A stretch of DNA of 64,000 nt from the NCBI RefSeq assembly GCF_041296385.1, contig NW_027184062.1, forward strand, positions 873,001 through 937,000, written 5' to 3'. Every line of letters begins with the position of its first letter. The stretch's first letter is position 1. Under the pieces are notes generated by a model. The model was not told the DNA's origin and searched no databases. It worked only from the letters and a program-made list of their open reading frames with translations. The DNA comes from Aphelocoma coerulescens (lineage: Eukaryota > Chordata > Aves > Passeriformes > Corvidae). Of the stretch, positions 1 through 54,949 are shown piece by piece. A program made the translations under genes and the position numbers.

Positions 1-479
1 AGCTCTTGGCTGGCGCGGCCCCAGTCGTGTGGAAGCAGTTGGTGGAAGAGCTCCGCTGTGCATCCTGCCTCTTGGAGACATAAAAGGATGTAACCCTGCG
101 CGTAGCGGGGAAGCAAGACGAATCTTTTCATTGTTGGCTGAGCAGTTTCTACGCGGCAAAAGTAAAGGCACTTTCAGCACGGCCTCTTTGTTTCAGAACC
201 TTTTCTGTGCCATCATGAACATGCTCAACATGCCACTCGCACCCGCTGAACTGCATCAAAGGCTCTGGAGATAGGCACTTTCCTTCAAGCTCTCTGTAGC
301 ATCGTACCCTCCACCTCTGGCGGATCCCAAAGCCCTTCCAAACATCCAGCAGCTGCACGCAGAGAACAAGTGCTAGAACAAGGCGTTGGCCTTCCTAGTC
401 CTTTTAAAGTCTGTGAACTAGGCGAAACATTCCAGTGAGCAGCACTTTCCTTCGCAACTATATCTAGAGCATCATCACA

Positions 480-1770
480 TTCTCTCCAAGTGGGTAAGTC
501 CACCCTTGCAGCGCAGCGTTTGCAGCCACAGTTCGGACTGAGAGATAGGCCAGGTGAGAAAGCATTTCTTGACTATCCCTCTTCTCTGGAAGACTTGATA
601 CTCGCAGCGCGACCACGTCCACACACCTTCAGTGTGGCCAGGTTCAAGCAGCTAGAGCTCCCAGAGATGGGAGAGTCAGGAGAGAAGACGTTCCAAAAGT
701 ACCGTGTACTTACAGCAGCATTAAAACTGTGCACAGCAGTCTGCAGCACTGTAGACTGCGGCTTCTCCGACAGACGAGCCATCCCATTGTTGCCTCTCGC
801 AGCCTGCTTGCTAGCTGCTCTCCTGAAGAAAAGAACTAGAAGAAAAAGCCAATGCTGGGCTGCACCTTCCCCTTGCCTTACGTAAAGCCACCTAAACTCC
901 CCGCTGCACTCTCTATTTCCCCTCTCCTTGGAAGCGACCACTGTGTTTGCTGCATCTCGAAGCCTAAAGTTAAGCGCCAGTGGTTTTGGGGATGGTTGGA
1001 AGAGGGATAAGTAGTAGCACAAGTAAGTAGTTGTCGTTGAACTTCCTCCTTCTCAGTGCTAACGTGAATTGGGCAGGCAGGCGAGTGCCAGCAACGCTCC
1101 TTTCTCAGTTTGTACGCTGCGGACACCAGCCCGGTGCTATGCGCCTTCGTTCGGCCTCTTTAGTACCCATGTCGCTCTTTCATTCAGCCGGAGTCGAAGC
1201 GTGGTCTGCTTCTCGCCCAGAGAGCACGGTGCCGGCAGCGAAATGCCCCAGCCGACTGCTTCTGCCCACACACGCCTGGTCTATGCACTTTCCCTCGCAG
1301 CGACATACAGCAGCACTTTCGGTCTTTTCTTGTCGTCCAAATGCAAAGGGAAAGAGTCTCAGCTCCGTCTGGCACAGTTTTAGGTCAACAAGCTTACCCG
1401 GAGCTTACCCGCGACGCGTGGAAACTTGTGTTTGCACCACATTCAAGTGGTTGCCGTCTTTCCTTTACAGCCTGCAGAGCACCGTCAGACCGCGGTGCTC
1501 TCTGCACCTGCCTTCTCAGTTCTAAGTACCACCGCGCCCCTTAAAGCCTTGCAGGAAGCAAAGACACGGATAGTCATCTCGCAGAGAAGAACGTGGAAGG
1601 ACGAAAGGATGATCTTCCTTTCTCCTGCTTCTTGCCTGAATTGTGGTGCTGTATTGAAAGTCTTGGCTAGCGAAAAGCTCATCCAGCAAGTGCCTCATTC
1701 CTGCCGCATCTCGCTGACGAGAGTTTCACGAAGAGTTTAGACTCTGGAAACAGCAAGAAAATGATTGTAC
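480..1770 (+). repeat. tandem unit L1 (most diverged, left arm)
   Basis: This is the outermost complete unit of the left arm. It shares blocks in the same order as the next two units: a marker at 1191, a block near 1497-1530 containing ctgcacctgccttctc, and a block near 1600-1700. It differs from them by many substitutions and short indels, whereas units L2 and L3 are nearly identical over long stretches. Its mirror partner is at about 7370-8640. Boundaries are approximate. Confidence 0.75.
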
Positions 1771-3180
1771 GTCGAGCTGAGGAAAATCCGTGCACAGCAC
1801 ACTGTGGATGCGTGCAGTGTTCGCGCTGAAGAGCGCCAAAACGCAAAGCCATCGCTGGGCTTCAGTTTCGTCCAGACGGCAGAAGGCAAAGAACGAAGCA
1901 ACTGGGCACCGCGTTAACGTACTCAGTGGACCGAATTTCAAATGTCCAGCCAAAAGCTGCTTCATAAGCAGATTCAGCTGAGAATGCTCTGGCTGCTTCA
2001 CAAAGTAAGGCGCAGCCGTTTCCATTCATCACACTACCTGGCCAGAAGCAGTATCCTACACCTTCAATGCTGCAGCGTCCATGCAGCTGGAGCACACGCA
2101 GTAGGACGCGTCGAGATAGAAGGCGGTCTTCAAGTACCCCCTTCTCCAAGCAGCCTTGAAACTGAGCACAACACACTGCGGCTCGGGAGCTTCCTTCTCA
2201 GATAGACGTGCCGTCACGTTATTCACTCTCGCAGCTCCGTTGCCCACTTGCAGCAGCTGCTACCAAAGCAAAATGCTCCAGAAGTAAAAAGCACTGCCGG
2301 GCTGTACTTTCGCCTTGCCGCACGTGAAGCACCATAAACTGTCCGCTGTACTCTTTATTTCCCTTCTCCGCCGCATCTACCACTGTCATCTCTGCATCTC
2401 GAAGCATAAAAGCTCGGCACAATTCTTCCCAGGGAAAGCTGGAAGAGAAATAGGTAGCAGCACAAGTAGCTGCAAGTGGAACTTTTGTTTTCAACTGCTA
2501 ACGTGAATCCGCAAAGAAGCGAGCGGCAGCCACGCTTCTTCTTGCAGCCTGTGCGATGCGCACACCAGCTCGGTGCTCTGCGCCCTCATTCGTATGCTCT
2601 TCGTACCATGTCGCGCTTTTCATTCTGCCGGAGTCGAAGCGTCGTCTACTTCTCGCCCGGAGAGCACGGTGCCGGAAGAGAAATGCCCCAGCCGACCGCC
2701 CTTCCGAAACACACCAGGGCTATGCACTTTTCTCGCAGCGACATACAGCAGCACTTTCGGTCTTTTCTTGTCGTCCAAATGTAAGGGGAAAGATTCTCAG
2801 CAATGTCGGGCACAGAGAACAGTTTTAGGTCAACAAGCACGCCCAGAGCTTGCCCGCGACTCGTGGAAACTTGTGTTTGCACACATTCCAGTGGCAGCCC
2901 TCTTTCCTTTACAGCCTGCAGAGCGCCGTCAGATCGCGGTGCTCTCTGCACCTGCCTTCTCCCTTCCAAGTACCACTGCGCACAATATAGCCTTGCAGGA
3001 AGCAAAGGCGCGGATAGTCGTCTCGCAGAGAAGAACGTGCAAAGACGAAAAGATGTTCTTCCTTTCTCCTCCTTGTCGCCCAGATTGTGGGGCTGTAGTG
3101 AAAGCCATGGCCAGCAAAAGGCTAATCCAGCAAGTGTTTCTCACCTGATGCATTTCGCTGAGGGAGAGCTGAGGAAAATC
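1771..3180 (+). repeat. tandem unit L2 (left arm)
   Basis: This unit spans from one copy of the block 'gctgaggaaaatccgtgcacagcac' (1776 region) to the next copy at about 3170. The internal stretch 1930-2480 repeats almost base for base at 3320-3870, an offset of about 1392 bp. Its mirror partner in the right arm is at about 5995-7370. Confidence 0.8.
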
Positions 3181-4650
3181 CTTGCACAGCACACTGCGGA
3201 TGCGTGCAGTACACATGCTGAAGAGCGGCAAAACTCAAAGCCATCGCTGGGCTTCAGTTCTGTCCAGACCGCAGAAGGCGAAGAACGAAGCAGCTGGGCA
3301 CCGCGTTAACGTACTCAGTGGACCGAATTTCAAATGTCCAGCCAAAAGCTGCTTCATAAGCAGATTCAGCTGAGAATGCTCTGGCTGCTTCACAAAGTAA
3401 GGCGCAGCCGTTTCCATTCATCACACTACCTGGCCAGAAGCAGTATCCTACACCTTCAATGCTGCAGCGTCCATGCAGCTGGAGCACACGCAGTAGGACG
3501 CGTCGAGATAGAAGGCGGTCTTCAAGTTACCCCCCTTCTCCAAGCAGCCTTGAAACTGAGCACAACACACTGCGGCTCGGGAGCTTCCTTCTCAGACGTA
3601 CCGTCACGTTATTCACTCTCGCAGCTCCGTTGCCCACTTGCAGCAGCTGCTACCAAAGCAAAATGCTCCAGAAGTAAAAAGCACTGCCGGGCTGTACTTT
3701 CGCCTTGCCGCACGTGAAGCACCATAAACTGTCCGCTGTACTCTTTATTTCCCTTCTCCGCCGCATCTACCACTGTCATCTCTGCATCTCGAAGCATAAA
3801 GCTCGGCACAATTCCTCCCAGGGAAAGCTGGAAGAGAAATAGGTAGCAGCACAAGTAGCTGCAAGTGGAACTTTCTGTTTTAAAACGCTAACGTGAATCC
3901 GGAAACAAGCGAGTAACAGCCGGGCTTCCTCTTGCAGCCTGTGCGATGCACACACCAGCTCGGTGCTCTGCCCTCATTCTTTAATGCTCTTCGTACCATG
4001 TCGCGCTTTCATTCTGCCGGAGTCGAAGCGTCGTCTACTTCTCGCCCAGAGAGCACGGTGCCAGCGGAGAAAGGCTCCAGAAAAACGCTCCAGGCTGCTG
4101 ATCCTTCCCAAACACACCAGGGCTATGCACTTTCCTTCGCAGCGCTAAGTAGCATCGCATTCTGTTTGCATTGGAGCCGGAATGTAAAGGGAAAGATTCT
4201 CGGCTACGTCTCACTCAGCGCCCAGTTTTAGGTCACCAAGCTTACCCGGAGCTTACCCGCGACGCGTGGAAATTGGTATTTGAACCACATTCAAGTGGTA
4301 GCTTTCTTTTCTTTAAGCCTGCAGAGCGCCGTCAGATCGCGGTGCTCTCTGCACCTGCCTTCTCCCTTCCAAGTACCACCGCGCACCTTACAGCCTTGCA
4401 GGGAGCAAAGACGTGGAGAGATGTCTCGCAGAGAAGATCGTGCAAAGACGAAAAGATGTTCTTCTTTGCTCTTCCTCGTCGCCCAGATTGTGGTGCTCTA
4501 CTGAAAGCGTGGGCTAACGAATGGCTAATCTAGCATGTGCTTCCCTTCTAATGCATTTCGCTGAGCGAGAGCTGAGGAAAATCCTTGCACTGTACACTAT
4601 GGATGCGTGCAGTAGACACGCAGAAGAGCGGCACAGCTCATAACCATCGC
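3181..4650 (+). repeat. tandem unit L3 (left arm, inner)
   Basis: The first part (3181-3870) is nearly identical to unit L2. The second part, from about 3880, is more diverged and holds extra sequence around 4060-4110. It ends at the palindrome junction. Its partner in the right arm (about 4675-5995) is shorter by about 150 bp. Confidence 0.75.
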
Positions 4651-4659
4651 ACACTCCAG

Positions 4660-4673
4660 CCCAGAGCTCTGGG
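4660..4673. repeat. 14-bp perfect palindrome near arm junction
   Basis: The bases cccagagctctggg read the same on both strands. They lie within about 20 bp of the point where the left-arm orientation changes to the right-arm orientation. There is no unique spacer longer than a few tens of bases between the arms. Confidence 0.7.
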
Positions 4674-7600
4674 GCTGCGTTCTTCTCAATTTCCGGCGCT
4701 GGACAGAACTGAGACATTGAGCTTTGGCTCTCTTTAGTGTGTGTACTGCACGCATCCAGAGCGCGCTGTGCACAGATTCTCCTCAGCGCTACGTGCAAGC
4801 ACAGACTTTCTGCTTCGCAGAGCCCAACTGTCCGCCGAAGCTCTCGCTCAGAGAAATGTGTCAGGAGAGAAGCACTTGCTGGATTAGCCTTTCACTGGCC
4901 AACAGTTCCAAAGAAGCACCATAGTCTTCTTGCGAGAAAGGATAATAAAACACATGTATTGTCCCAGCAAAGTTCTCTGTGCGAGCCGAAGCCGAGAATC
5001 TTTCCCTTAAGATTAAGACCATAACGCAGACAGCATTTTGTGCTACTTAACGCTGAGAGGGATAGCCCAGGTGTGTTTCGGCAGAGGCAGAAGCCCGGAG
5101 CGTTTCTCTGCCGGCACCGTGCTCTCAGGCGAGAAGTAGACGACGCTTCGACTCCGGCAGAATGAAAAGCGCGACATGGTACGAAGAGCATACGAATGAG
5201 GGCGCAGAGCACCGAGCTGGTGTGCGCATCGCACAGGCTGCAAGAAGAAGCGTGGCTGCCGCTCGCTTCTTTTCGGATTCACGTTAGCAGTTGAAAACAA
5301 AAGTTCCACTTGCAGCTACTTGTGCTGCTACCTATTTCTCTTCCAGCTTTCCCTGGGAGGAATTGTGCCGAGCTTTATGCTTCGAGATGCAGAGATGACA
5401 GTGGTAGATGCGGCGGAGAAGGGAAATAAAGAGTACAGCGGACAGTTTATGGTGCTTCACGTGCGGCAAGGCGAAAGTACAGCCCGGCAGTGCTTTTTAC
5501 TTCTGGAGCATTTTGCTTTGGTAGCACCTGCTGCTAGTGGGCAACGGAGCTGCGAGAGTGAATAACGTGACGGTACGTCTATCTGAGAAGGAAGCTCCCG
5601 AGCCGCAGTGTGTTGTGCTCAGTTTCAAGGCTGCTTGGAGAAGGGGGTACTTGAAGACCGCCTTCTATCTCGACGCGTCCTACTGCGTGTGCTCCAGCTG
5701 CATGGACGCTGCAGCATTGAAGGTGTAGGATACTGCTTCTGGCCAGGTAGTGTGATGAATGGAAACGGCCGCGCCTTACTTTGTGAAGCAGCCAGAGCAT
5801 TCTCAGCTGAATCTGCTTATGAAGCAGCTTTTGGCTGGACATTTGAAATTCGGTCCACTGAGTACGTTAACGCGGTGCCCAGCTGCTTCGTTCTTCGCCT
5901 TCTGCGGTCTGGACAGAACTGAAGCCCAGCGATGGCTTTGAGTTTTGCCGCTCTTCAGCATGTGTACTGCACGCATCCACAGTGTGCTGTGCAAGGATTT
6001 TCCTCAGCTCTCCCTCAGCGAAATGCATCAGGTGAGAAACACTTGCTGGATCAGCCTTTCGCTGGCCATGGCTTTCACTACAGCCCCACAATCTGGGCGA
6101 CAAGGAGGAGAAAGGAAGAACATCTTTTCGTCTTTGCACGTTCTTCTCTGCGAGACGACTATCTGCGCCTTTGCTTCCTGCAAGGCTATATTGTGCGCAG
6201 TGGTACCTGGAAGGGAGAAGGCAGGTGCAGAGAGCACCGCGATCTGACGGCGCTCTGCAGGCTGTAAAGGAAAGAGGGCTGCCACTGGAATGTGTGCAAA
6301 CACAAGTTTCCACGAGTCGCGGGCAAGCTCTGGGCGTGCTTGTTGACCTAAAACTGTTCTCTGTGCCCGACATTGCTGAGAATCTTTCCCCTTACATTTG
6401 GACGACAAGAAAAGACCGAAAGTGCTGCTGTATGTCGCTGCGAGAAAAGTGCATAGCCCTGGTGTGTTTCGGAAGGGCGGTCGGCTGGGGCATTTCTCTT
6501 CCGGCACCGTGCTCTCCGGGCGAGAAGTAGACGACGCTTCGACTCCGGCAGAATGAAAAGCGCGACATGGTACGAAGAGCATACGAATGAGGGCGCAGAG
6601 CACCGAGCTGGTGTGCGCATCGCACAGGCTGCAAGAAGAAGCGTGGCTGCCGCTCACTTCTTTTCGGATTCACGTTAGCAGTTGAAAACAAAAGTTCCAC
6701 TTGCAGCTACTTGTGCTGCTACCTATTTCTCTTCCAGCTTTCCCTGGGAAGAATTGTGCCGAGCTTTTATGCTTCGAGATGCAGAGATGACAGTGGTAGA
6801 TGCGGCGGAGAAGGGAAATAAAGAGTACAGCGGACAGTTTATGGTGCTTCACGTGCGGCAAGGCGAAAGTACAGCCCGGCAGTGCTTTTTACTTCTGGAG
6901 CATTTTGCTTTGGTAGCAGCTGCTGCAAGTGGGCAACGGAGCTGCGAGAGTGAATAACGTGACGGCACGTCTATCTGAGAAGGAAGCTCCCGAGCCGCAG
7001 TGTGTTGTGCCCAGTTTCAAGGCTGCTTGGAGGAGGGGGGTACTTGAAGAACGCCTTCTATCTCGATGCGTCCTACTGCGTGTGCTCCAGCTGCATGGAC
7101 GCTGCAGCATTGAAGGTGTAGGATACTGCTTCTGGCCAGGTAGTGTGATGAATGGAAACGGCTGCGCCTTACTTTGTGAAGCAGCCAGAGCATTCTCAGC
7201 TGAATCTGCTTATGAAGCAGCTTTTGGCTGGACATTTGAAATTCGGTCCACTGAGTACGTTAACGCGGTGCCCAGCTGCTTCGTTCTTCGCCTTCTGCGG
7301 TCTGGACAGAACTGACGCCCAGCGATGACTTTTAGCTGTGGCTCTCTTCAGCATGTGTACTGCACGCATCCGCAGTGTGCTGTGCAAGGATTTTCCTCAG
7401 CTCTCCCTCAGCGAAATGCATCAGGTGAGAAACACTTGCTGAATTAGCCTTTCGCTGGCCAAGGCTTTTAATACAGCACCACAATATGGGCGACGAGGAG
7501 AAAGGAAGAACATCTTTTCGTCCTGGCACGTTCTTCTGAGCGACATGACTATCCGCATGTTTGCTTCCTGCAAGGCTGTATTGTGCGCGGCGGTATTGGA

Positions 7601-9126
7601 ACTGAGAAGGCAGGTGCAGAGAGCACCGGGATCTGACGGCGTTCTGCAGCCTGTCAAGGAAAGACGGCTACCACTTGAATGTGGTGCAAACACAAGTTTC
7701 CACGCGTCGAGGGCAAGCTCTGGGCGTGCTGGTTGACCTAAAACTGTTCTCTGGGCGGGACATAGCAGAGAATCTTTCCCTTTCCATTTGGACGACAAGA
7801 AAGACCGAAAGTGCTGCTGTATGTCGCAGCGAGGGAAAGTGCATAGACCAGGCGTGTGTCGGCAGAAGCAGTCGGCTGGGGCATTTCTCTTCCGGCACCG
7901 TGCTCTCTGGGCGAGAAGTAGACGACGCTTCGACTCCGGCTGAATGAAAGAGCGACATGGGTACTAAAGAGGCCGAACGAAGGCGCAGAGCACCGGACTC
8001 GTGTCCGCAGCGTACAAACTGAGAAAGGAGCGTGGCTAGCACTCGCCTGCCTGCCCAATTCACGTTAGCACTGAGAAGGAGGAAGTTCAACGACAACTAC
8101 TTCCTTGTGCTACTACTTATCCCTCTTCCAACCATCCCCAAAACCACTGGCGCTTAACTTTAGGCTTCGAGATGCAGCAAACACAGTGGTCGCTTCCAAG
8201 GAGAGGGGAAGTAGAGAGTGCAGCGGGGAGTTTAGGTGGCTTTACGTAAGGCAAGGGGAAGGTGCAGCCCAGCATTGGCTTTTTCTTCTAGTTCTTTTCT
8301 TCAGGAGAGCAGCTAGCAAGCAGGCTGCGAGAGGCAACAATGGGATGGCTCGTCTGTCGGAGAAGCCGCAGTCTACAGTGCTGCAGACTGCTGTGCACAG
8401 TTTTAATGCTGCTGTAAGTACACGGTACTTTTGGAACGTCTTCTCTCCTGACTCTCCCATCTCTGGGAGCTCTAGCTGCTTGAACCTGGCCACACTGAAG
8501 GTGTGTGGACGTGGTCGCGCTGCGAGTATCAAGTCTTCCAGAGAAGAGGGATAGTCAAGAAATGCTTTCTCACCTGGCCTATCTCTCAGTCCGAACTGTG
8601 GCTGCAAACGCTGCGCTGCAAGGGTGGACTTACCCACTTGGAGAGAATGTGATGATGCTCTAGATATAGTTGCGAAGGAAAGTGCTGCTCACTGGAATGT
8701 TTCGCCTAGTTCACAGACTTTAAAAGGACTAGGAAGGCCAACGCCTTGTTCTAGCACTTGTTCTCTGCGTGCAGCTGCTGGATGTTTGGAAGGGCTTTGG
8801 GATCCGCCAGAGGTGGAGGGTACGATGCTACAGAGAGCTTGAAGGAAAGTGCCTATCTCCAGAGCCTTTGATGCAGTTCAGCGGGTGCGAGTGGCATGTT
8901 GAGCATGTTCATGATGGCACAGAAAAGGTTCTGAAACAAAGAGGCCGTGCTGAAAGTGCCTTTACTTTTGCCGCGTAGAAACTGCTCAGCCAACAATGAA
9001 AAGATTCGTCTTGCTTCCCCGCTACGCGCAGGGTTACATCCTTTTATGTCTCCAAGAGGCAGGATGCACAGCAGAGCTCTTCCACCAACTGCTTCCACAC
9101 GACTGGGGCCGCGCCAGCCAAGCGCT
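4674..9126 (-). repeat. right arm of palindrome, three inverted units
   Basis: The arm contains three copies of the ~1.39 kb unit in reverse orientation, with markers at 5145, 6536 and 7927. The outer ~800 bp (8100-9126) is close to a perfect reverse complement of 1-1020. The arm stops matching at 9120-9126, which may be the true outer boundary or simply where the left arm leaves the window. Confidence 0.9.
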
Positions 9127-9940
9127 TTTTGCCGGGCACTGTCAGCGCTCATGGAAACAACCACACGATGGCGCTGCAGACTTGCAAAAGAAGGCCAAGC
9201 ACCTGGCCCAGCTCGAAACCACCCCAAGGGCAGACAGAGGCAACTTGCAAACGGCCCTGCACTCAAATCAACGGTGTCAGGACAAAAAGATTGCCCTCAT
9301 CTTCCCCTTCCAAGAGCACACTCTTCTTTACACCACACCTCTTTGGCCCAAACAAATCTTTTCCCTCTCGCAGATTCCGCCCACCAACTTGAAACCATCT
9401 GGCAAAAACAGGGCTCAAAACAGTGCCAGCTGAGGAAGATCTTGCTGCCTACAACTTCACCTGCACCCCTCAAACTAGCAGCACACACGCTGTTCTCAGC
9501 ACTCTCCTTCTCAGCTCTAGGTACCATCCTAAGCCTTCCCTCTCCCAGAGTCAGGATCCAAAGGCAACGGCACCAGGGACTGCTCACACACTGAAGGCAC
9601 CAGGACAAATAGCTTAAGAGCTTGGCCTTTGCATTCCCACTGACAGCTCAACAGCTCGAACCCAGAGAGAGCTCTGCCTGTTGGGAAAAGCCTTTAAAAT
9701 CCCTAGGAGTACCTGATGTGCACATCCAAACCTGCCTTCCTTGCCAAAGAGAGCAACTACAAGCCCATCTCCAAAGAAACGGCATCCCCTCCTCCAAAAT
9801 ACAACACATCCAGCGACTGATCCACCTCCAGTATTGAATATGTCCAACAATTGCCCCTACACGCACAGGGGCCAGAAGAGAAATGTCTTGCTGGACTATT
9901 CCCCCCCACGGTACCTTAACATCTGCTCCAGCAACACTGG
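9127..9940 (+). repeat. decayed copy of the palindrome repeat family
   Basis: The block near 9490-9530 (ctccttctcagctctaggtaccatcc) resembles 1505-1535 (ctgccttctcagttctaagtaccaccg) and equivalent blocks in every unit. A preceding gctgaggaagatcttgc matches the unit's gctgaggaaaatccttgc. The rest is heavily diverged. No gene is recognised; the short open frames here on both strands are not supported as coding. Confidence 0.5.
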
Positions 9941-11060
9941 CACTATGTCCTTGCCTTCCCAAGGAAAGGCTCTCCGAGTCTCTTGGCCTTGCCTTGTCTA
10001 GTTCTTCTTAAGGTACCCTTGCTCTGCTTCCTTTGCCTGCGTCTGCCTTGCCTCGCACTGCCTACAACTTGCTGGCTTTGCTTTGCCCGGCCTTCCACTC
10101 TTTCCCTTGCCTTCCATGCAGGCAAGGCGCTGCAAACCGAGTGCAGGCAATTGTGGGCAAGTCAAGGGAGAGGTAGGCAAGGCCAGAGCAGTGAGGGGAA
10201 AGCAAATGGAGTGGTAGGCAAGAGAAGGCCCAGAAGTTAGAGGCAAGGCTGGCTGTAGGAAGGAAGGGCCACTGATGGGAAGGCCAGGCAGAAACAGGAA
10301 GGGCTCAGCAAGCCAAGGCCTGGAGGAAAACAGTAGGCAGGTCATGTGCGGGGCAGGGCCCTGCAAAGGAATGCAAGGCTCCAGAGGGCTAGCAGGGCAA
10401 GGCAAGGCAACTGTTGTGTTGCCAAGGCAAGGCCAGGCAAGGCAGGTGAGAAGTACATTCAAGGACTGCTGGTGCACAAAAGTGGCCAGGACCAAGTGCT
10501 CTGTGTGGCCTTGATCCCGCGTGGGTCATCTCTCCTCTGTACCTAAAAGACTTGAGCTACCTGCTTTCCCTTGTATGCAAAAGAACTCTCTTTCTGGTCC
10601 CCGAGCTCAAGGGCAAAATGTGAATTGCCCCTCCAAGGTTCAAGACATGCAAGGATTGCTCCCAGACAAAGGCTGCCCACAGAGATGAGTGTGGCAACAT
10701 GCGTCCTCCCCTGGTCTTCCTCTCATGGGATCCTGAAACACCGGAGATGCTTGAGAGCTTTGAGATTCCTCGGAGGAGCAGAAAGGGCAGGGCAAGGCCC
10801 AGAAATGTCACTGCAAAGGGGTGTTGAATTCCAGGTGGGGGAGGGGTGAGCAAGGTCATGCACGGCAAGGGAGGGGTTCAAGGGCAAGGCAAGGCAAGTG
10901 GTGGCTTTGCGAGGCGAGGCAAGGCAATGAGGGTCCTAGAAGGAAAAGGAAAGATGAGGCCAGACCTAGACAAATGTGAAAGGAAGTCAGGTGGGGGATG
11001 GGTGAGCAAGTCAGTGCAAGGCAGGGGAGAAAAGGCAGGTTGAGGGAAGGCTACAGAGGG
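9941..11060. repeat. degenerate CCTTG/CAAGG repeat with strand switch
   Basis: From about 9945 to 10120 the plus strand is rich in ccttgcc, tttgcc and similar words. From about 10120 to 10460, and again at 10840-11090, it is rich in the complementary words ggcaagg and caaggca. The two halves are therefore loosely inverted relative to each other around 10120. There is no regular period; it reads as a decayed simple repeat. No gene is seen. Confidence 0.7.
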
Positions 11061-11185
11061 GGCAGCAAGGAAATGCAAGGCATGGGGAAGCATGCGAGGA
11101 GTGGGTGCTGCCAGCTGGTGGGGATGGCAGGGGCGGGGCCACTGCAAGTAGCATGGTGGGGGTGTGGAGGGGGTGTTAGTGTGCC

Positions 11186-11250
11186 GGAGGGGCGTGTGTG
11201 TGTGTGTGTGCAGTGGAGTGCAGGGTAAGTGCAGGTGTGTGTGTGCATAT
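11186..11250. repeat. TG-rich microsatellite
   Basis: A gtgtgtgtgtgtgtg run near 11199-11211 is followed by more interrupted tg/gtgtgtg at 11235-11246. It is short and imperfect. Confidence 0.7.
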
Positions 11251-11315
11251 ACGGGGGTTTTGTGCCAGGTGCTGTGCCGGGGAGAGCCGTTCCACCGCAA
11301 GGAAGGTGTGGGAGT

Positions 11316-11756
11316 GAAAGGAGTAAGATAGATGTGTCTTTACAAAGAGACCGTGTGAATCTCTCCTTAGACAAGGCTAGGAATTTACAGGGGGGGAAGT
11401 AACAGAAGAAAGTATTCGTTCTAGAAACTGTTACTAATCAACAGAGACTGTTGCTCAGCCAAGGCCCTGCTAAATTCCTGAACCTAGAGCAAGGCAGCAA
11501 AGACTTCCTAGCATTAGGAATAGTTTGGTTTTCTTCCTTTTCCATTCCAAAAGGGGAGTGCATATTAGAGGGGGGCATAGAGTAGGCAGTTCCGGAAGTC
11601 TGTAATTCCCGAGTACCTCAGAGGGTGCTGTTGCCAGGAACTTAGCATCAGAAGGGGGCTGCATCCTGCAATCATTTGAGAGACTCCATGGCAAAAGCCC
11701 CATGGCCTCTCCCTGGAGTTGAAGAATGTTACAGGACTCCTCTGTCTCCTTTTTGG
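11316..11756 (+). repeat. 5' LTR of class I ERV, truncated
   Basis: It aligns over its length to 14952-15400, sharing for example gtctttacaaagagaccgtg, gcagttccggaagtctgta and ctcctctgtctcctttt. Alignment ends at 11755, just before the place where the other copy has a TATA-like ggatataaac. What follows (11757-11990) is not recognised, so the boundary is probably a deletion joining U3 to internal sequence. Confidence 0.75.
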
Positions 11757-12069
11757 TGGATGAAGAAACTCAGAAAGCCACACTTCTGCCAGAACTCTCC
11801 AAGATGCCCCCTTTGCTCCCCGTGACTCCATCACTGCCCAGGAAGCTGTCTTTTCTACCACAGCAGTTTGACATACAGTTAAAAGTCGTGTGGCAGAGAA
11901 AAAAGGCAAGAATTGGTTTCCAAGGGATGGCAAACAAGAGATACCAGAACCTTTGGCCCTACCAATATTAAAGCAACTCCATTAAGAGAGTTCTTGCACT
12001 TCCTGAGGATTGGCAGAAGCCTATCTCATGATGTATGTTGCTGGGGGTCTTTTTAGACTGGCAAAAGGA

Positions 12070-12900
12070 GCTGTTGAAGGTTGCTTGATCTGTGCTAAAG
12101 CCAACAGCCAAGTTACAAAGTAACTTGCTAGGGGAGGGAGGCCTTGGGCTGCATGGCCCTTCCAAAGATGCCAGGTGGATTTTCCGGAGATGCCCCAAGT
12201 GGCAAGGCTTAATATCTTCTGGTAATCGTATGTCAGCTAGCAAGGTGGCCAGAAGTATTTCCAACTACTTCAGTAATGACAGGATCAGTTCTTAAGGCAT
12301 TTTTGGAACAAATCATTCCAAGATACAGCATTGTAGAAGCAATAGATTCAGATAGGGGAACTCATTTTGCAGGAAAGATCCTTCAAGGGGTTTTGGCTTC
12401 TTTAGGAACACAATGGAACCTCCATAGGCCCTGGCACCCCCAGAGCTCGGCTCGGGTAGAAAACAATGAAGAGAGAAATAAACACCTTTTGAAGCTGGTA
12501 ATAGAAACCAAGATGCCATGGGTAGGGCTTTGGACATTGGCTTTGGTGAGAATGAGGGCCCAAGCCAGAAGAGAGATTCAGTTATCTCCCTTTCAATCGT
12601 TGTTTGCAATTGCCCTGGTAAGTCTCCACCTAGTGGGGGGGTAGAGGCAAGTGATGCATTTTTAAAACCATCTGTGGCCAGGATCCTGCTTCTTGTGAAA
12701 CCCCTTCAACAGGAAGCTCAGCTGGCGCAAGCCCGGCCTTTGGACTTTGCTGCTTTTAACATCCAACCAGGAGATTGAGTCCTAGTTAAGGAGTAGAAAG
12801 AAGCGCCAGTGCTGGTGAAATGGTGTGGCCCATTCCAAGTGTCACTGACAACAGAAACAGCCATCAAGTAAGCTGAACACAGGTGAACCCGTCCCTCTCG
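12070..12900 (+). pseudogene. ERV integrase remnant
   Basis: A C-x2-C zinc-binding remnant lies near 12090. The catalytic-core remnant is in the open frame 12276-12644, with an aspartate-containing DSDRGTHF motif near residue 24 and a WHPQSSARVEN block around residue 52, typical of the gammaretroviral integrase core. A C-terminal remnant with a GPFQV motif is near 12830. The core is preceded by frame changes and a deletion, and the C-terminal part has in-frame stops. It cannot encode an active enzyme. Confidence 0.75.
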
Positions 12901-13400
12901 GGTCAAGGTCTCTGAAGCCTCAGAGATTTGCACATCTCAGCTGGAGGAGAAGGCCGGGAGGCCGTGACTGACACTCTGCAGGAGTGGGCCGGAGCAGTAG
13001 GCAGTGCTTCGACATCGGAAGAAGCCCCGCAGTCCTACCTTCAGACCGTCTGCTGAAATAGACTGTATAGGCATCCCTCCTCTAGAATCTCCACTCACTT
13101 GGGGGCTAATACTTGTGGCCATTTTGTTACGTTAAGTGGTTTCTGTGTCTTCAATTGCCACAGGTGCTGCAGAAGACAACGGGAAAATTAGACTAGCTAA
13201 TTAGATGACACTATTAAAACATTTTCCTTACTAATTCTACTTTGATATGGTCAGCTGAGTTTAGGCCAGGAGTGGGAGAATCAATTTGCAGCCTTAGGAG
13301 AAGAAGTAGCAAAAGTTTTTAACCTTAGCAATTGCTGGCTCTGTGGAGGGCCAGGAGGATCTGAAGAGTGGCCATAGTTGGCTAGCCCAGCTGAACCTAA

Positions 13401-14453
13401 ATGGTGGGTCAATGTGAGGGCCACAGTGGGATGGGATTTGGGGCCAAAGAAGGAAGTTCATGGCCACTTCATTCTTCTCCAACAGGCACTTATTGCCTAA
13501 ATAGGATAGGGCGTGTCTATGTAGGAAAAGGCAATTGTCAATTGACTTTCCCTCTGGGCTTGAACAACTGGGTTTGGACCCCCAATTGCCCTCCTTCCAA
13601 TTGTTCCAAATATCAAGGCAAATGCAATCAAATACCTGTTCGGCTCACTAACAGTAGCTGCGTAAGGCGTTCTTATCACACTTACCAAAAATATTTGGAA
13701 GCCTGTAAAGCAATGGGGAGGGACAAGGGGTTTTTTTGACCACCTGTTTTTGAGCAGTCCCCACAAAAATTCCACAAGTAGAAGACATGTTGTTTGTGAT
13801 TATCAGTGGGAATGGCCACACCGGGTTGGAACTCAAAGCCTTTTAGTGAGTTCTGCTCCAAATCCAACCAAGCAGCTTGCAGATGTAAATGTAGGTGGGA
13901 ACCCTGTGCGGGAGCTTGGAAATGCAAATGCTGGGACCCTTATGGTGGGGCAACTCTTGTTGGAGGACCGTTAGGCCCGGGAATCCTGCTGTATTTTGAG
14001 CCACCAATTGATGACCATGGGTAGGTTCCTTTGCTAATGGAACACGGGCTTTGAAAGGACAGTATTGGATTTGTGGCCAACATGCTTAGCTCAGGTTACC
14101 TCCAAACTGGTCAGGGATATGGTATATTTAGTAGACTGTTGTTCTTTTTGCTACTACAAGTTCTGGGAAATCGCTTAGGAATCAAAATCTGTGATGATTT
14201 AATTAGAGAAAAGCAGTCAGCTGATGCAGCCCTGGCTGGAGGGAGCACCCCAAAACGGGGAAATGATGAACAGCCAACAGAACAAGTTACCCAACACGAT
14301 GGACCAGCCCCTTGGAAACCTAAGGAATTAATCCCAGATGCCTGGGAACCCATTTATCATTTGAAGGAGATAATTAGGTTACAAGCTGTCTCGGAAATAA
14401 TTACCAACCAGCCAGCCACAGCGCTTGACCTTTTTGCTGACCAACCCACTTAA
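13401..14453 (+). pseudogene. ERV envelope surface-subunit remnant
   Basis: Open frames at 13401-13739, 13750-13974/13806-14024 and 14073-14453 lie between the integrase remnant and a transmembrane-subunit remnant. The first has several cysteines and Asn-x-Ser/Thr sites. The assignment to the surface subunit comes mainly from position; sequence similarity is weak by eye. The frame is broken at about 13740 and again near 14030. Confidence 0.5.
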
Positions 14454-14663
14454 ATGAGGAAAGCGGTATTTCAACATTGGATGGTATTAGATTATCTGTT
14501 GGCAGAAGAAGGAGGAGTTTGTGGGAAATTAAATGACTCGAGCTGCTGTTTGCAAGCAGATGACAGCAGAAAAGTGGTCAAACAAATAACAAAGGAAATA
14601 ACGTCAGCTCGTGGACCTGTCCAAATGTTGAAAGGATGGGATGGGACATGTTTTCATGGTTAA
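14454..14663 (+). pseudogene. ERV envelope transmembrane-subunit remnant
   Basis: The 69-codon open frame has a leucine-rich stretch followed by a cysteine motif near residue 23 (C, seven residues, then CC), the arrangement found in the ectodomain of gamma-type retroviral transmembrane subunits. The fusion peptide, membrane anchor and cytoplasmic tail are not visible in frame. Downstream sequence to the polypurine tract at 14937 contains stops. Confidence 0.65.
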
Positions 14664-14951
14664 CTGGCCAGCTCTGGGCTAAATGAATACGATTCCTCCT
14701 CTTATATGCTATAGCAACTCTCATCTTTTTACCATGTGTGACACCATGCTGGCTGCAGCTCTTTCAGCAGGTGCTCAAGGGGATGCCGCTAGCAGCCATG
14801 CCTACCTGATCCAGAAATGACTACAAAAGGACAGAAAAGGATGTCACTGCAAATAATAGCAAAACCCAAGAAGACTCCAGAAGAAAAAATTAAATCCATG
14901 GTAATTAAGGTTTGTAAAGACAAATACAGAGCAAATAAAAAGAGGAGGGAT

Positions 14952-15440
14952 TAAAAGGAATGAGATGGATGAGTCTTTACAAAGAGACCGTGTGAATCGG
15001 CCTGTAGACAAGGCTAGGAAGTTATGGCTAGTGAAGTAACAGAAGAAACTAGGAGTTCTCTAGAACTGTTACTAATCATCAGAGACTGTTGATTAATCAA
15101 GGCCGTGTTAAATTCCTGAACCTAGAGCAAGGCAACAAAGACTTAAGAGCATTAGGAATGGGGTTCTTATCTTTCTTCTCGATGCCAAGAGGGGGGTGCA
15201 TATTAGAGGAGGGCGCATAGAGTAGGCAGTTCCGGAAGTCTGTATCTCCCGAATACCTCAGCCAGTGGGGAAAAGGAAGAGGGTGCTGTGGCCGGGAACT
15301 TGGCATCAAAAGGGGGCTGCATCCCGCAACCGTTTGACAGACGCCATGGGAAAAGCCCCATGGACTCTCCGTGTAGTCGAAGAATGTTGCAGGACTCCTC
15401 TGTCTCCTTTTCGGATATAAACCTCAGGCATCGTGGATTA
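14952..15440 (+). repeat. 3' LTR of class I ERV, truncated
   Basis: It follows a polypurine tract and aligns with 11316-11756. Beyond the shared part it continues with cggatataaacctcaggcatcg (15412-15433), a plausible TATA box. No polyadenylation signal follows. GC-rich sequence begins within about 30 bp, so the LTR either ends here by deletion or abuts unrelated DNA. Confidence 0.75.
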
Positions 15441-15454
15441 ATTTTCCCTAACGG

Positions 15455-16370
15455 CAGCGACCTGCCGCGTGGTCTCCGTGCTCCTCTCCAGCCCCCCGGG
15501 ACGTGTAAAATAGTTCCCAGCGGCTCCCACCGCGCGTTGCAGACGGCTGCGCGGCCCCGGGGCTGCCCGCAGTGCTCCCCTGCCCCGCCAGGGCTGCCCG
15601 CGGGCTGCGGAGCCGCCTCGCCACCGGCGCGGCCAGGGCCGGGGCCCTTCTCGACAGCAGCCGAGGGGCTGCGGAGCGGGCGGCTGCCGGACGATCAGCT
15701 ATTTTATGCCGCGCGGTGCTGCCGCCTCCATCTAGCTCTCCATCGCGCCGCCACCCGCCCCCCGCCTGGCGCGCTCACGCTCGGCCGCGCTCGCCGCCCG
15801 CCCAGCCTCGCCGGAAGCTCTCCCGCCCGGGCCGTGGCCCGGCTCCGCTGGCAGCTCGGCAGGGCCCGGCCGCACGCGTGCTGCGTGGCTCGGAGCAGCC
15901 GCGTTGCGCCGCAGGCGACGGGGAAGGCGGGGTGGGCCGGCGCCATCGTGGTAGCGCGAGGAGAGGAGCGCCCGGGCGGGGCGGCGAGCGGCGCGGCGGT
16001 GAGCGCTTCTGCTTCCTGTCGCTCGGCGGCCGCCCACGGCAGGTGCCGTGTGACCCCGCGGAGCGGCGGGGCCGGCCGGGCGGTGCGTGGCGAGGCTTTT
16101 GGCCAGCGGCGGCCACAGCGAGAGGCTGCTGGCACTGCCTGTGCCGGTGGAGAGGGCCGGCCTTCCCAGGGCGACGCGGGGTGGCCGCCTTTGCCGGGCT
16201 GCACTCCGTGCAGCACGTGGCCGATTCCGGCGAACCCGGGGTCTCCGCAGCGGCGCGGGCGGGAGGGAGTGGGGAGCGTGCTCGGTGCCGTGCTGGCCGC
16301 TCCCGGCCAGCGCTGTGCTCCGCCGAGGCGTTTTCCCGCCCGTCCTAGGAAGGACATAAGGGACACTGGA
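15455..16370. promoter_or_regulatory. CpG island, possible promoter
   Basis: This stretch is strongly GC-rich and dense in CG dinucleotides, unlike its AT-richer flanks. It directly follows the TATA-like sequence of the 3' LTR. A donor-like sequence (cttgcg/gtaggt) occurs at about 16447-16453, so a noncoding first exon ending there is possible on the plus strand. Long open frames on both strands are an expected by-product of the composition. Whether it serves the HYDIN locus downstream cannot be told from the sequence. Confidence 0.6.
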
Positions 16371-16453
16371 CTTGGAGCTTAGCTGTGAGAGGGAGCAACT
16401 CCCCTCCATTGTCGATGTCTTTTTCCTGCCCTCCGATTCAGCTACCTTGCGGT

Positions 16454-17130
16454 AGGTGCGATGGTGCTGAAGAAGGGTGGCGGCTTGGCACAGTTGCTGT
16501 CATAGGTGGTGCGAGAGCTCCACGCAAGGAGCTTTGAGTGGCATGTGTGAGGGTAGGAGGGTACGGCACCCATAGCTGAAGGCAAAAAAGGTCAGGGCAT
16601 GTCATCAGCCGCAGTCGTGCTAAGTTGTTCATCTTTGCAAACTGCTTGCCGAGTTGTTCCTTTCATAGGTAATGGGGTTTTGTATCAACCAGAACTGCAA
16701 ATGGTCAGTATTTGCAGACAAGGTTACTTGGACTGTTGTTGAAGTGAGTGTAGCAGTTTCTATGGCATTCTGCAAAAAAAGTGACAGGTCTCTCTGTGTT
16801 CCCCAATTCTTAACAAAAATGAAGTTAACAAACCCCTGAAAAGAGGTTTTGCAAAACTTCAGGGATTTTTTCCCACTAGTACTGTAGAGACAACCATAGT
16901 CACCTTGTCTTTCCAAAAGTGAAGGTTCCCTATTTTTGTCCAAGAGCATCAAGTGCTTTTGATCAGCGTTTGTGTGCATGCATTAGCCTCGTTCTTGCTC
17001 TTCCTTGGAGAACTTTTGCAGTACTCAGATGATCTGTGTAGGCTGCAGACTGCAGTGGTGAACTTCAAGGCTTCCAGCAGAAGGGAGATGCTGTCCACAT
17101 TTTGGATTCTCCTTAGTCTGAACCTTCAAT
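16454..17130. other. non-coding interval, nothing recognised
   Basis: The sequence is ordinary, moderately AT-rich, without a convincing open frame, repeat family or splice-bounded exon. Confidence 0.5.
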
Positions 17131-17136
17131 GTCCAA

Positions 17137-17747
17137 TAACGTAGCGTTTGATGCTCGAGGCACTGACTCTGGCTTGCCCCTGGTCAGAGACAGTCCAGCT
17201 GCGTTACCTCCACGCGTCGCTGAAGCGACTTCGGGATCAGGAAAAGAGCTGCTTGCTGGGCTAACTAGCTGGCTTCTTTGCAGCGGGAAACACAGCAGGA
17301 GCCGATGATGTCGGCTCACGTTAGCTCAGAGACAAAGGAAGAGAGAGGCTGTTCAGGTCTGGCTTCTAACAGGTTTAATGCGATAGGATGAGGATGAGGT
17401 CGGATTGATGGGAATCCGCTCCTCGAAGGCTTGTCCTCAGTTTTATAGGGAATTTGAAAACCGCGGTGAAAGGGGAAAACAACCATGAGTTACAAGCCAG
17501 GGGGAGGATACAATGAAACAAGAACCACTGTGGTAAACCGAGAGGCGGGAGGTATAACAGAACCAATGAACGACCGAGTAACCGAAATTTTTCCCCAACT
17601 GGGGGAGGTGGCTTGTACCCGGGTGTGGCTTAGGCTTCTGAGCCGCCCGCTGAGTCTGAGTCTTGGGGGAACTCGATCCAGGGGAGGGGCTGGGATTGAT
17701 TGGCATTACCCAGCTTCAGCCCTGCAGTGGGCTGGGTCACCCCAACA
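17137..17747 (-). mobile_element. solo LTR, minus strand, 6-bp target duplication
   Basis: The 611-bp segment is flanked by perfect 6-bp direct repeats, gtccaa, at 17131-17136 and 17748-17753. Read on the minus strand it begins TGTTGGGGTG, carries a TATA-like cctataaaac (complement of 17441-17450) and then an attaaa signal (complement of about 17373-17378), the order expected for U3-R-U5. Its minus-strand 3' end reads CGTTA rather than the usual CA. No internal retroviral sequence adjoins it, so it is a solo LTR. Confidence 0.8.
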
Positions 17748-17753
17748 GTCCAA

Positions 17754-19655
17754 GGCTTCACTTTTCAAGCAGTTGGAAGAGCTCCAAATTAAGATATGAA
17801 GAGGTCTTAATTGACCTTGTCACCGCCTCAGTCAAGTAATGCTGCGCATTGGATTTAATTGACTAGTGCAACATGTGCTTAAAATATGTAGAGTATCTCC
17901 TCGATTACCCTCTCAGAAGGGTTGGAATGGAGAACAAGGAGTTCCGAAGACAAATATTTGGTGTACGAGAAGTAGAATTTAGGAGTTGATTGCAGGGCAC
18001 TGCATGCACAAATGTCTAAGGAGGATCCATCTTTTGATGTCCCATCTATGCTTGTTCTCATTTGAAATCCTGAACATTCTGCAGGTTGGTTTTGTTAGGG
18101 TTGTAGCTGGGGAAGGGGCAGTGGTGGGGGAGGGGTGGATGTTGTTTCTGATTTTTTAAATTTCCAGAATAGTGTACACAGAACTTGTGCCCAAAACCAG
18201 CAGTATGAAACAACGCAGGTATAAAAGAAGGTCACAGAAATGTAGGATAATATGAATCTGAAAGCGCTTCAGTATTTTACCCAGGAGTTTCACTCCAACA
18301 AGGTGATTTTCCTTCACAGAAATGTAGTGGCAGGCTTACGCCATGCTAGAAGTGATGACCTTTCTCTGCCCCAAATTGAGCAGCAAACGATTTTGGCTCT
18401 TGATTTGAACCCCTGAGCCAGCTGTGTTTCAGGCTGCAGAAGCTGCAGCTGTTGTGGCAGACGCGGGGTGCAGCCCTGCCTGCCAGTTCCGAGCTGGCCT
18501 GCGCTGGTGGCAGCCGTCAGCGCCCGGGGTCCCCTGTGCCACCCATGCCAGGGCTCTGCCTGCCTGCCTCGCAGCCCTGGTAGCCTCAGGGAAACATCGC
18601 ACTACTCCATCTGCTTTAAAAACAAACAAGCAAACAAAAAGCTTCCTGTAAATATTTGTAGAAGTCTTGAAACTAATTCTCAGCGCTTGCTCGGAGTTTG
18701 TTGATGGAGCAAATGGATTTTGGATAAACTGGTACTGCTAGTGCTACTTTTAAATTAGGTTCCTAAACTTCAGAAAGGAGGCCATGGTGGTCACGTACCC
18801 CTGAGGAATGTTTGAAAAAGTAAGACAGCTCAGTCATTTCAAGGTGGCCAGAAAATGGGTGTGGCAGTGGAGTGGACACTCGGTGAGTAGGTAGCCTTAA
18901 GTCATGTAACGACATGCACTTCAGTGGGAATTTTGCATCAACACCAAGAGATCGTGTCATGATGTGTTGCATAACAGCAAATTGGGCCAAAATTCTACTG
19001 ACTTTGATCAAGGTGGACGGGCCACCTTCACTTAGCCCAGCATAGAGACATAAGTCAATGATGTTTGAAAAACAGCCATGAAACATAGCCCCTTTAGTTT
19101 GTTGCTCTGTTGCAAGTCTGCAAAGCTCTGTTGACAGGTCATTGGAAGTAGCTGTTGGAATCTAAGTGCAGTTGGACGCTTTGTCAGTCAGCATCAGCAG
19201 GAGGCTTAACGGTTTAGGTTGAGAGGTGGTGCATGTTTTTTTCAGAGGAATGGCCCAGTGAAGAGCAGTGTTCACTGCCTTGACTGCTGTTGTAGCCTTC
19301 AAGAGAAATGGGGTAGGCTTAGAACTGTGTGGGAATTCTTGGTCCATTCAGAGAGAACGTCCTTGGTTCTGTTGGTTTGGTTTCACAGCTGGAGCAAAGG
19401 TACAGCACTGGAAGCAATTCCTAGGGCAGAAGCGGAAGATATCCAAAGCTCTGTACTTCATTGTCCTCAGCACAGTGTAAGTGAGCGTAGTCTAATTGGA
19501 GGAGTGGTGAGCATCAGTGATATCAGATTTTTTACAAGTTCCTAATTCTGTCAAAACAAGAAAGAAGGAAAGTGATGAAGATGAAATTCTTTCCTCTTAA
19601 ATCTGCCTACGCAACAGCTTCAGGAGTAGTTGTAATATGTATTAACCTATTCTGA
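17754..19655. other. non-coding interval, nothing recognised
   Basis: No exon, RNA gene or repeat family could be supported. Short open frames at 18424-18704 on both strands lie in a locally GC-rich, CTG/CAG-rich patch and look incidental. Confidence 0.45.
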
Positions 19656-20180
19656 ATGGCCCAAAACCAGGCCTAGAGAAGCTTCAGAGACAGAGTCAGA
19701 GAAGCGGGTATTTGCTTTATTTGGCGCTGGATGCGTGGGGGATCACTCCTCCTAACACTCACACACACAGAGCACTCCATACAGTCCAGCATTATGTGTA
19801 AAATTTATGAACATTCATCACAATTCTTGGGATAGGAGTGGTTCTAGAAATTACTTCTCGGAAGTCATTAATATCATTAGCATACGTGCCATGCATGTGC
19901 TGTGTACGCTGATGGGCGCACTGAGGAAGGCTCCTCTTCTTCCTCGAGGGTCTTTCTGATGAAGATCAGTAGTCTTTGTCACAATGCCCTTTTTACCTTT
20001 CTTTCTGGAGCATGCGCAGTTCTTCGGTGGCTGATGCAGCGATCTCTGTGCCAGTTTTCAAAAGATCCTGTTCCTCTTATCTTGACAAGATTAAGGTGAA
20101 TCCTGCTGCTTAGGTTTTGTGATTAACATTTGCTGTCTCTTTATAGTTTATTCGTGCTTACATGAGTTAACTATGGATCA
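19656..20180 (-). repeat. putative 3' LTR, minus strand
   Basis: Its right edge at 20180 (minus-strand start TGATCC) directly abuts a purine-rich tract on the minus strand. An aataaagc polyadenylation signal is seen as gctttatt at about 19714-19721. The left boundary is approximate. Confidence 0.6.
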
Positions 20181-20471
20181 TCCCCCTTCTCAATCCTCCC
20201 TTTTCCTTGATCGTTTGTAATTCTTTACAAACCTTGCATGTCTTGAATGTAAGTACTGTTCTCTATCTTGTTTCTATGTTTGTGCTTTTGCCATTGTGTA
20301 TACGCATTGAGTTACTAAGCACCTAATATCATATAACAATAACTACTAATACAATCAGTAAATAAGAACGTCACGAGACATATAGCTATTACAAACAATT
20401 GTTTAAGCCAGGATAAGTTGGGTAACCATGCTGTGAGTTTATCTTCTATCTCTTTAAACTTGCAAGAAGCG

Positions 20472-42472: not shown

Positions 42473-42841
42473 AATAGCCAGAGATCTGCCAGGATGAACC
42501 ACGCTTCTCATAGAGATATGATGGAACTCCTTTTATTCTATTGTCAGTCCCATAGTTATACTCTAATTCCCCAAGCACGCATAAGCAAGCTCCATACTAT
42601 TGGATTACAGCTACTGTTCACATGGCCTTTAATAGCAAGCGATTGGTTAGAGATTAATATGCACGCGACTAACTAACATAAGTCTTCCTCTCTCTGTGGT
42701 CAGCATCGCCCTCCCCAACATCCTGTTGGCTTGCCACATCAGCATTGCTCCTCTCTTTTTTCCTTAGTCAAGGACAGTTCACTAATATAGCTTGGATTGT
42801 GCACGTATACATGTCCCTGTTCACTCAGCCATTTCTCTACA
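42473..42841 (-). repeat. 3' LTR of class II provirus
   Basis: It is nearly identical to 58683-59051 over all 369 bp, with about a dozen substitutions by eye. On the minus strand it starts TGTAGAGAAATGG and ends GGCTATT. It is preceded on the minus strand by a polypurine tract (complement of 42842-42860, attccccctttttcttctt). Confidence 0.9.
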
Positions 42842-48326: not shown

Positions 48327-48474
48327 TGTCTCGGTTTGAAAGACAGGTGTCTGCTAAGGAAGGCAGAAGCCTCCCTTGGAGTGGCAGATGTAACCCCTTT
48401 CCCTCTGAGTTATTATAATTTTGAAATCAAGGGTCTTCAGGCAAAGATGTGGGAAAATAGGAATAACAGTTCTT

Positions 48475-48526
<52 letters not shown>

Positions 48527-49259: not shown

Positions 49260-49395
49260 TTATCCACCCCGAATTTTTTTCCATACTAACATGTTACATG
49301 AAACTTAACTTTTTAACCATATAAATACAAGCATCACCTAAATTATATACATATGTACATGCTGATACTGATACAAGTACAGAGCCATGGGTAGT

Positions 49396-52524: not shown

Positions 52525-52578
52525 TGTCCAGAAAACCCGGTTCTCCCGTGCCTCTTCCTGGCTAGAGGCAGGGCCCCT

Positions 52579-54669: not shown

Positions 54670-54730
54670 ACCAAATTAAGTTATCCAGGAACTGTTATTC
54701 CTTTTTCACCTCTCTCTCTTAATGCCCTCA

Positions 54731-54750
54731 GGCCCCACGGTTGGGCGCCA
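54731..54750 (-). other. primer binding site of ERV-L
   Basis: The complement reads tggcgcccaaccgtggggc. This resembles the site complementary to lysine tRNA (one base longer than the usual form). It lies within 6 bp of the 5' LTR end at 54756. Confidence 0.75.
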
Positions 54751-54755
54751 AGATC

Positions 54756-54903: not shown

Positions 54904-54949
<46 letters not shown>

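Follow-up and report, generated by a model that had tools for sequence, protein, structure and literature searches.

How a palindrome built of tandem repeats arises in a bird genome, and what keeps its two arms alike, is the question raised by a window of 64,000 nucleotides from Aphelocoma coerulescens (RefSeq assembly GCF_041296385.1, 1.33 Gb; contig NW_027184062.1, here C642, positions 873001-937000). In a first-pass annotation, positions 1-9126 of this window were described as a palindrome of three direct units of about 1.4 kb facing three inverted ones, and explained either by gene conversion between the arms or by a recent inverted duplication of a whole arm. From the comparisons reported here the window palindrome is very probably, formation history included, the edge copy (P5) of a macrosatellite of about 40 kb whose repeating unit is itself palindromic. 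As judged from sequence, the claim is that of a palindromic macrosatellite that would spread and rearrange, and any further role lies outside it.

A palindrome of facing satellite units

Self-comparison of the window recovered the palindrome spanning 1-9126 with arms 95-97% alike, the mirror identity being 95.2% for 1-1723 / 9126-7401 and 97.2% for 1774-4078 / 7403-5097; chance is not an explanation for these matches, whose E-values print as 0.0. The stretch 1-1050 is 98.7-100% identical to its mirror partner in 150-bp bins. The inner arms consist of a satellite of units of about 1.39-1.40 kb, named L in the left arm and R in the right and numbered from the outside in, so that L0, L1, L2 and a stub of about 90 bp face R0, R1, R2 and a stub. 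On the + strand lie L0 (1..1773), an old partial unit with outer-arm sequence from which the left arm continues leftward beyond the window; L1 (1774..3165), a full unit of about 1.39 kb whose second half belongs to the right-arm type (99.3% identical to R1); L2 (3166..4568), a full unit of about 1.40 kb and of left-arm type; and the left stub (4569..4659, unit positions 1-97). The - strand holds the right stub (4662..4787, unit positions 138-3), the hinge-side unit R2 (4791..6010), with a diverged and shortened tail, the full right-arm unit R1 (6011..7403), and R0 (7404..9126), the mirror of L0. Between the arms the unstranded hinge (4640..4690) contains a near-perfect 21-bp palindrome, CAGCCCAGAGCTCTGGGGCTG, at 4657-4677.

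Tandem units facing each other across almost no spacer had been correctly recognized, with the hinge at about 4660 instead of the 4650 first given. The truncated units meet at 4659/4662, with practically zero spacer, and the non-duplicated central spacer typical of Y- and W-type palindromes is thus absent. The limits of 1 and 9126 did not survive: base 1 of the window cuts the palindrome, and the right arm extends to about 17,462. The full P5 palindrome occupies C642:854599-890462, about 36 kb including a provirus of about 10 kb in the left arm, its right limit corresponding to window 17462, and a mirror pair beyond the window (C642:865705-874723 / 889400-880401) is 97.8% identical. The outer right arm (9127..17462, - strand) mirrors the sequence left of the window, and begins with a degenerate copy of the 1.4-kb unit in + orientation (9127 to about 10100). 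Both flanks are in fact degenerate unit copies, with z scores (60 shuffles each) of 5.8 for 1-609 against L2 and of 6.6, 4.0 and 3.7 for 9127-10100 against L2, L0 and L1, as compared with 0.7 and 0.7 in minus-strand tests and -1.7 and 0.1 for two control stretches.

The first-pass annotation had further held that mirror partners are far more alike than tandem neighbours. This is so for L1/R1 (97.9%) and, over its unit part, for L0/R0 (92.6%). The pair L2/R2, at 86.0%, falls below the tandem pair L1/L2 (90.5%); the other tandem pairs are R1/R2 (85.9%), L0/L1 (78.6%) and R0/R1 (80.5%). The units are mosaics, in that alignment columns 100-700 of L1, L2, R1 and R2 are 96-100% alike in all pairings, the first 100 columns vary (84-99%), and the second half is arm-specific or pair-specific. 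Directly beside the hinge identity is 78.7% (4050-4666 vs 5125-4697, 375 aligned positions), and the inverted junction, about 21% diverged at this point, is old. A junction piece of about 50 bp (1724-1773), retained at L0/L1, is missing from R1/R0 as well as from L1/L2, L2/stub and R2/R1; 51 bp homologous to it by eye lie at 4788-4838.

Copies along the contig and across the assembly

Comparison of 200 kb around the window revealed five palindromes, P1-P5, with hinges 39-55 kb apart and in a single orientation; P1 is cut by the edge of that stretch, P2-P5 are complete, and P5 is the window copy. As expected of a macrosatellite, copies on this contig are near-identical (33.4 kb at 99.4%, 19.7 kb at 99.9%), and the array halts near window 17-20 kb, its edge marked by a partial copy of the inter-palindrome spacer (17743..20194, + strand, 93-95% identical). 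Unit numbers vary independently in left and right arms: P1-P4 have one full left unit each and P5 two, and full right units besides the hinge-side one number 2, 2, 6, 1 and 1 in P1-P5, giving P1-P4 right arms 2-7 units with the hinge-side unit counted. The three-versus-three symmetry of the window is thus an exception among the five. The same whole-unit steps are seen in the right-side distance from hinge to spacer, which follows 13,445 + n x 1,392 bp (n 0-3, residuals -0.04 to +0.14 unit) in 25 distances from other copies (23 standard palindromes, 2 incomplete), and a further distance, 16,408, also fits.

In these neighbours the comparison of mirror with tandem pairs breaks down. Whether taken from one copy or from different copies of P1-P4, full right-arm units are 99.3-100% alike, whereas left and right units are about 91-92% alike in the first half and about 84% in the second, so that tandem neighbours exceed mirror partners throughout P1-P3 (left-right range 84-92%); P4, with one full right unit only, is uninformative. 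L2 of the window resembles the left units of P1-P4 in its second half (97.8-98.0%). Mirror-versus-tandem identity at a single locus can therefore mislead if that locus is one among hundreds. In P2, the interior copy chosen for this comparison, the left unit is chimeric, its 5' part being like L1 of P5 (100 vs 87%) and its 3' part like L2, as a single unequal exchange would leave it.

The outer arms behave otherwise. Among five right and four left arms, left and right are 98.2-99.2% alike over about 9 kb, as in other palindromes with long, similar arms; their outer 7.8 kb are 98.7-99.7% alike between any left and any right arm, and all 37 fixed left-right differences fall within the first 273 columns adjoining the inner units. 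P5, the edge copy, is the most different from P1-P4, and its two arms share 12 private variants (17 without the deletion-bearing arm L3p), whereas the remaining 19 left-right pairs share 0-3 each. Whichever branch carries those 12 variants, both arms changed together.

Across the assembly, a 41-bp hinge pattern surrounding the 21-bp palindrome has 462 exact copies (224 + 238), and a reversed-pattern control has 0. Positions are known for 100 of them, apparently listed in contig order: C13 (17), C44 (16), C45 (16), C48 (20), C50 (17) and C51 (14). All five C642 hinges carry the exact pattern as well, which places it on at least seven contigs. Median hinge spacing is 40,095 bp in 94 neighbouring pairs among the 100, and the kilobase-scale unit and many repeats of a macrosatellite are thus found here as 462 hinges at a median of 40.1 kb; if the listed spacing holds, 462 x 40.1 kb amounts to about 18.5 Mb, or about 1.4% of the assembly. 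The copies are not head-to-tail throughout, 18 of the 94 successive hinges switching strand. The array on C13 (last spacer at 27,465,121) stops about 20 kb short of the TTAGGG run that closes the contig, and TTAGGG repeats likewise form the end of C45. Apart from the hinge copies, diverged copies of the 1.4-kb unit (83-90%) occur on C13 at about 27,476,000-27,477,900 and at the start of C50, and seem to belong to an older, wider satellite family.

These numbers bear on whether the structure is an artefact of assembly, by fold-back or chimeric join. Palindromes exceeding most high-fidelity (HiFi) read lengths can be mis-oriented, and four of the ten contig ends inspected read as N. Such an origin is nevertheless very improbable, given an exact hinge in 462 places on several contigs including C642, copies that differ by whole units, and sister copies that retain different variants. 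A fold-back sequencing artefact was considered separately and rejected, as the differences between L1 and R1 are substitutions apart from 1 gap column in 1392. Taken together, the L1/R1 substitutions, the recurrence of the hinge, the whole-unit differences and the copy variants leave the window-scale structure hardly artefactual.

Provirus, empty site and probable exchange between arms

The provirus of P5 lies in the left arm at C642:855632-865698, and the mirror position in the right arm (window 16395..16412, - strand) is an empty site; the same arrangement is found in P2-P4. Its long terminal repeats (LTRs) differ at 22-24 of 653 sites (3.4-3.7%) in all four copies, and in the 4 kb inside the provirus site the arms mismatch at 28/3990 positions in P2, 10/3990 in P3, 15/3993 in P4 and 61/3972 in P5 (0.25-1.5%). 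The provirus entered the left arm once both arms already existed. Because arms that predate it should match or exceed the divergence of its LTRs, they were homogenized after the insertion, and in being less diverged than their age they resemble palindromes of the Y and W type. In P5 the outer 1.5 kb are more diverged between arms (34/1033 outside the provirus site, 24/483 inside). The provirus was also considered as a barrier to conversion, as BLAST identities between left and right arms of P1-P4 are 99.2-99.4% inside its insertion site and 96.2-96.3% outside; the drop proved to be a 20-bp indel, and the idea was abandoned for P2-P4. The left-arm provirus of P4 (C642:807473-826487) extends over 19 kb, LTR to LTR, in place of 10 kb, probably through insertion of a second element.

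With a provirus in one arm, an empty site in the other, and arms less diverged than the LTRs, the second explanation of the first-pass annotation, in which a whole arm of an older tandem array was recently duplicated here in inverted orientation, is rejected and must be rated extremely improbable. The likeness of L1 to R1 and of 1-1050 to its mirror would be what it predicts. The divergence beside the hinge, the 86.0% of L2/R2 and the identical hinge in all 462 copies are not. Homogenization between opposite arms, its other explanation, fares better and draws support from the empty site, the contrast between arms and LTRs, and the 12 variants private to both arms of P5; the reasoning from mirror and tandem identity by which it had been reached is not sustained by P1-P3. 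Sharing across the array is of no less weight than exchange between arms.

The orientation of hinges was evaluated for 49 copies on C13, C44 and C45 against 40 spacers scored of 585 candidates. Fifteen of these hinges lack a listed spacer on at least one side; among the 34 with spacers on both sides, 25 are of the standard form, the hinge is flipped in 4, and 5 are switches of orientation. The flipped hinges lie between equally oriented spacers (C44:1017444; C45:372007, 412851 and 453694), and the three on C45 are consecutive and have an identical lower-side distance of 12,475; they look inherited by tandem duplication. At the switch palindromes the orientation of the array changes, with two left flanks (L/L) in 3 and two right flanks (R/R) in 2. 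As read from the flank distances, the breakpoints of flips and switches would lie in the outer arms. Crossover between arms would predict both classes; mis-assembly would predict similar flips.

The structure, the common hinge, the empty site, the number of hinges, the whole-unit length changes of right arms and the flipped hinges of the assembly are read directly from the bases; the history connecting them would run as follows. An ancestral array of CpG-rich, apparently non-coding repeats of about 1.4 kb would have given rise to an inverted junction, placed at a short palindromic hinge, and a provirus would later have inserted in one arm. A block of about 40 kb, comprising palindrome, provirus and spacer, would then have been amplified until the exact hinge was present 462 times, including on two contigs that end in telomere repeats. 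Recombination between inverted arms, in the form of gene conversion with an occasional crossover that causes inversion, may keep the arms alike, and unequal exchange and block amplification between copies may contribute to the same likeness. The block probably spreads as a selfish or passive array, in part subtelomeric, and not for the sake of a host gene product.

Several observations weigh against this account of the palindrome as one copy of an amplified, arm-converting block. The hinge-side right unit breaks the homogeneity of right arms, its first half being 95.5-96.2% identical to full right units in P1, P2 and P4 (99.4-99.9% in P3) and its tail being diverged. There is no step in divergence at the provirus site of P2-P4 (3-4/533 mismatches just outside), which leaves the LTR comparison as the sole basis of the dating. 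Because P5 splits off deepest and the comparison has no outgroup, the variants shared by its arms may have arisen instead on the branch leading to P1-P4. Assemblies typically err by inversion where inverted repeats are long, the 40 scored spacers are the whole basis of the flip and switch classes, and flips and switches could be assembly artefacts. Finally, telomere repeats were found at two of the ten contig ends read (C13, C45); besides the four ends of N there are four without a TTAGGG run, including the right end of C642, and evidence for a subtelomeric position is limited to C13 and C45.

Composition, chromosomal setting and surroundings

Base composition raises the possibility that the amplicon is kept for a product. 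In 1-kb bins the observed/expected (o/e) ratio of CpG is 0.76-0.87 from 1001 to 7001, where the units lie, and 0.95 and 0.75 in bins 15001 and 16001 (G+C 0.65 and 0.57); the remaining bins of the window range over 0.05-0.65, these two being the only ones of 57 non-unit bins above 0.65. The latter correspond to a CpG-island-like end of the outer arm (15400..16430, unstranded), mirrored in the left arm. Between close copies the excess of the CpG over the non-CpG transition rate is 14x in the CpG-poor outer arm, 2.3-3.5x in the units and 3-6x in the mirrored island, an indirect clue from few sites that fits low germline methylation of the units. Units and islands might be promoters, either for a transcript of the gonad or for hairpin double-stranded RNA that enters small-RNA silencing, and both the CpG ratios and the low transition excess speak for this; PO41, a subtelomeric bird repeat, is reported to be transcribed from both strands (PMC4301066). 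On the other side stand the absence of any host gene family at cut-off among ten open reading frames (ORFs) compared with Pfam, in a search that did not extend to small exons, the frame-breaking indels, and the zone beside the hinge, which would be the inner stem of a hairpin and is just 78.7% alike. A retained product is on balance unlikely. The ten ORFs gave integrase pieces in 2, a sub-cut-off match in 1 (CD45, E 0.032) and nothing in 7. A coding unit was discarded, two unit ORFs having no Pfam match and the units differing by indels of 1, 4 and 13 bp, as was ribosomal DNA, with no Rfam family at gathering score in the window or the 40-kb unit; ARAGORN found no tRNA in the window.

The chromosomal setting was approached through CHD1-like matches, the expected markers of Z and W. 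Such matches lie on C39 and C34, and a fourth, on C12, is probably CHD2. None of the 100 listed hinges falls on these contigs, and if the listing follows contig order, as it seems to, C34 and C39 would both be free of exact hinges. This argues against an ampliconic palindrome of a sex chromosome, of the Y/W type, which is quite improbable even though the arms are inverted and homogenized, the surroundings are rich in proviruses, and birds do have W palindromes (PMC7787181, PMC3403216). Some of the remaining 362 hinge copies, or C642, may be W-linked. On C34 itself two CHD1-like C-terminal matches, at 20333922 (-) and 20476538 (+), lie 143 kb apart in opposite orientation, an arrangement that brings to mind the CHD1W palindrome reported from the W of sparrows and blackbirds (Davis et al. 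2010). That palindrome shares with the present one its occurrence in birds and its conversion, and differs in being described there as W-linked and as containing a portion of a CHD1W intron.

Among the matches listed, titles and abstract openings of the open-licence PMC literature describe no palindromic bird macrosatellite of about 40 kb. The D4Z4 unit is 3.3 kb long and, like the present units, CpG-rich. D4Z4-type macrosatellites likewise form a tandem array near a chromosome end, with polymorphic copy number in D4Z4, but D4Z4 has the DUX4 ORF, whereas the present unit is about 40 kb, palindromic, and has no recognized ORF family (PMC4364343, PMC8350899). Primate Y palindromes such as human P6 have inverted arms kept alike by conversion, with arm crossovers leading to rare inversions (PMC3723533); here, in contrast, there are hundreds of small tandem palindromes, almost spacerless and with no gene found, whose arms carry their own 1.4-kb satellite in variable number, and one array occupies the telomeric end of a 27.5-Mb contig on which no CHD1-like match lies. 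Palindromes of the duck W also consist largely of repeats, without robustly expressed genes, but are 38 in number, dispersed and 15-346 kb long, as against a single type in tandem (PMC7787181). PO41 of Galliformes is similarly a subtelomeric tandem repeat, with RNA that has short double-stranded regions from inverted repeats, and its unit is 41 bp, not about 40 kb (PMC4301066). The testis-gene arrays of the chicken Z and the HINTW array of the W are likewise large and amplified, and carry host genes, of which none is recognized here (PMC7787181, PMC3403216).

A more far-reaching proposal is of a partly subtelomeric macrosatellite that inverts itself, arm crossovers in its hundreds of small palindromes being frequent enough to flip hinges and whole blocks. 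The palindromes may carry little methylation and, in the germline, give rise to hairpin RNA by transcription. This proposal is doubtful on present evidence; if true, the arrays would have a role in chromatin of chromosome ends or in exchange between chromosomes. For the macrosatellite as preferred here, each copy preserves a record of how many units it has, of how its hinge and its array are oriented, and of its conversion tracts, and the provirus shared by the copies examined provides a clock, which together amount to a natural replicate experiment on competition among inverted arms, tandem satellites and block amplification.

Other repeats accompany the palindrome. The outer right arm contains an old retroviral remnant, with an LTR-like pair at 11310-11753 / 14947-15411 (81.8%) and an integrase core at 12213-12641, and frames at window 29963-31247 presumably derive from an avian CR1-type long interspersed nuclear element. 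At C642:940701-945372 / 952329-957000, 3.7 kb right of the window, a further inverted repeat is 99.7% identical over 4.67 kb and reaches the edge of the stretch examined. Direct repeats of 370 bp (42473-42842 / 58683-59052, 96.5%) flank retroviral-looking frames, perhaps of an older element that was hit by the one at 48-56 kb. The latter is a provirus-like element on the - strand (48327-55682), probably a young insertion, with LTR-like direct repeats (48327-49259 / 54756-55682) that are 99.25% identical, two long open frames (49399-52578, 52582-54675) and a 57-bp minisatellite at 54001-54207; runs of (TA)24 at 48478-48525 and (TA)21 at 54907-54948 occupy the matching place in its two repeats.

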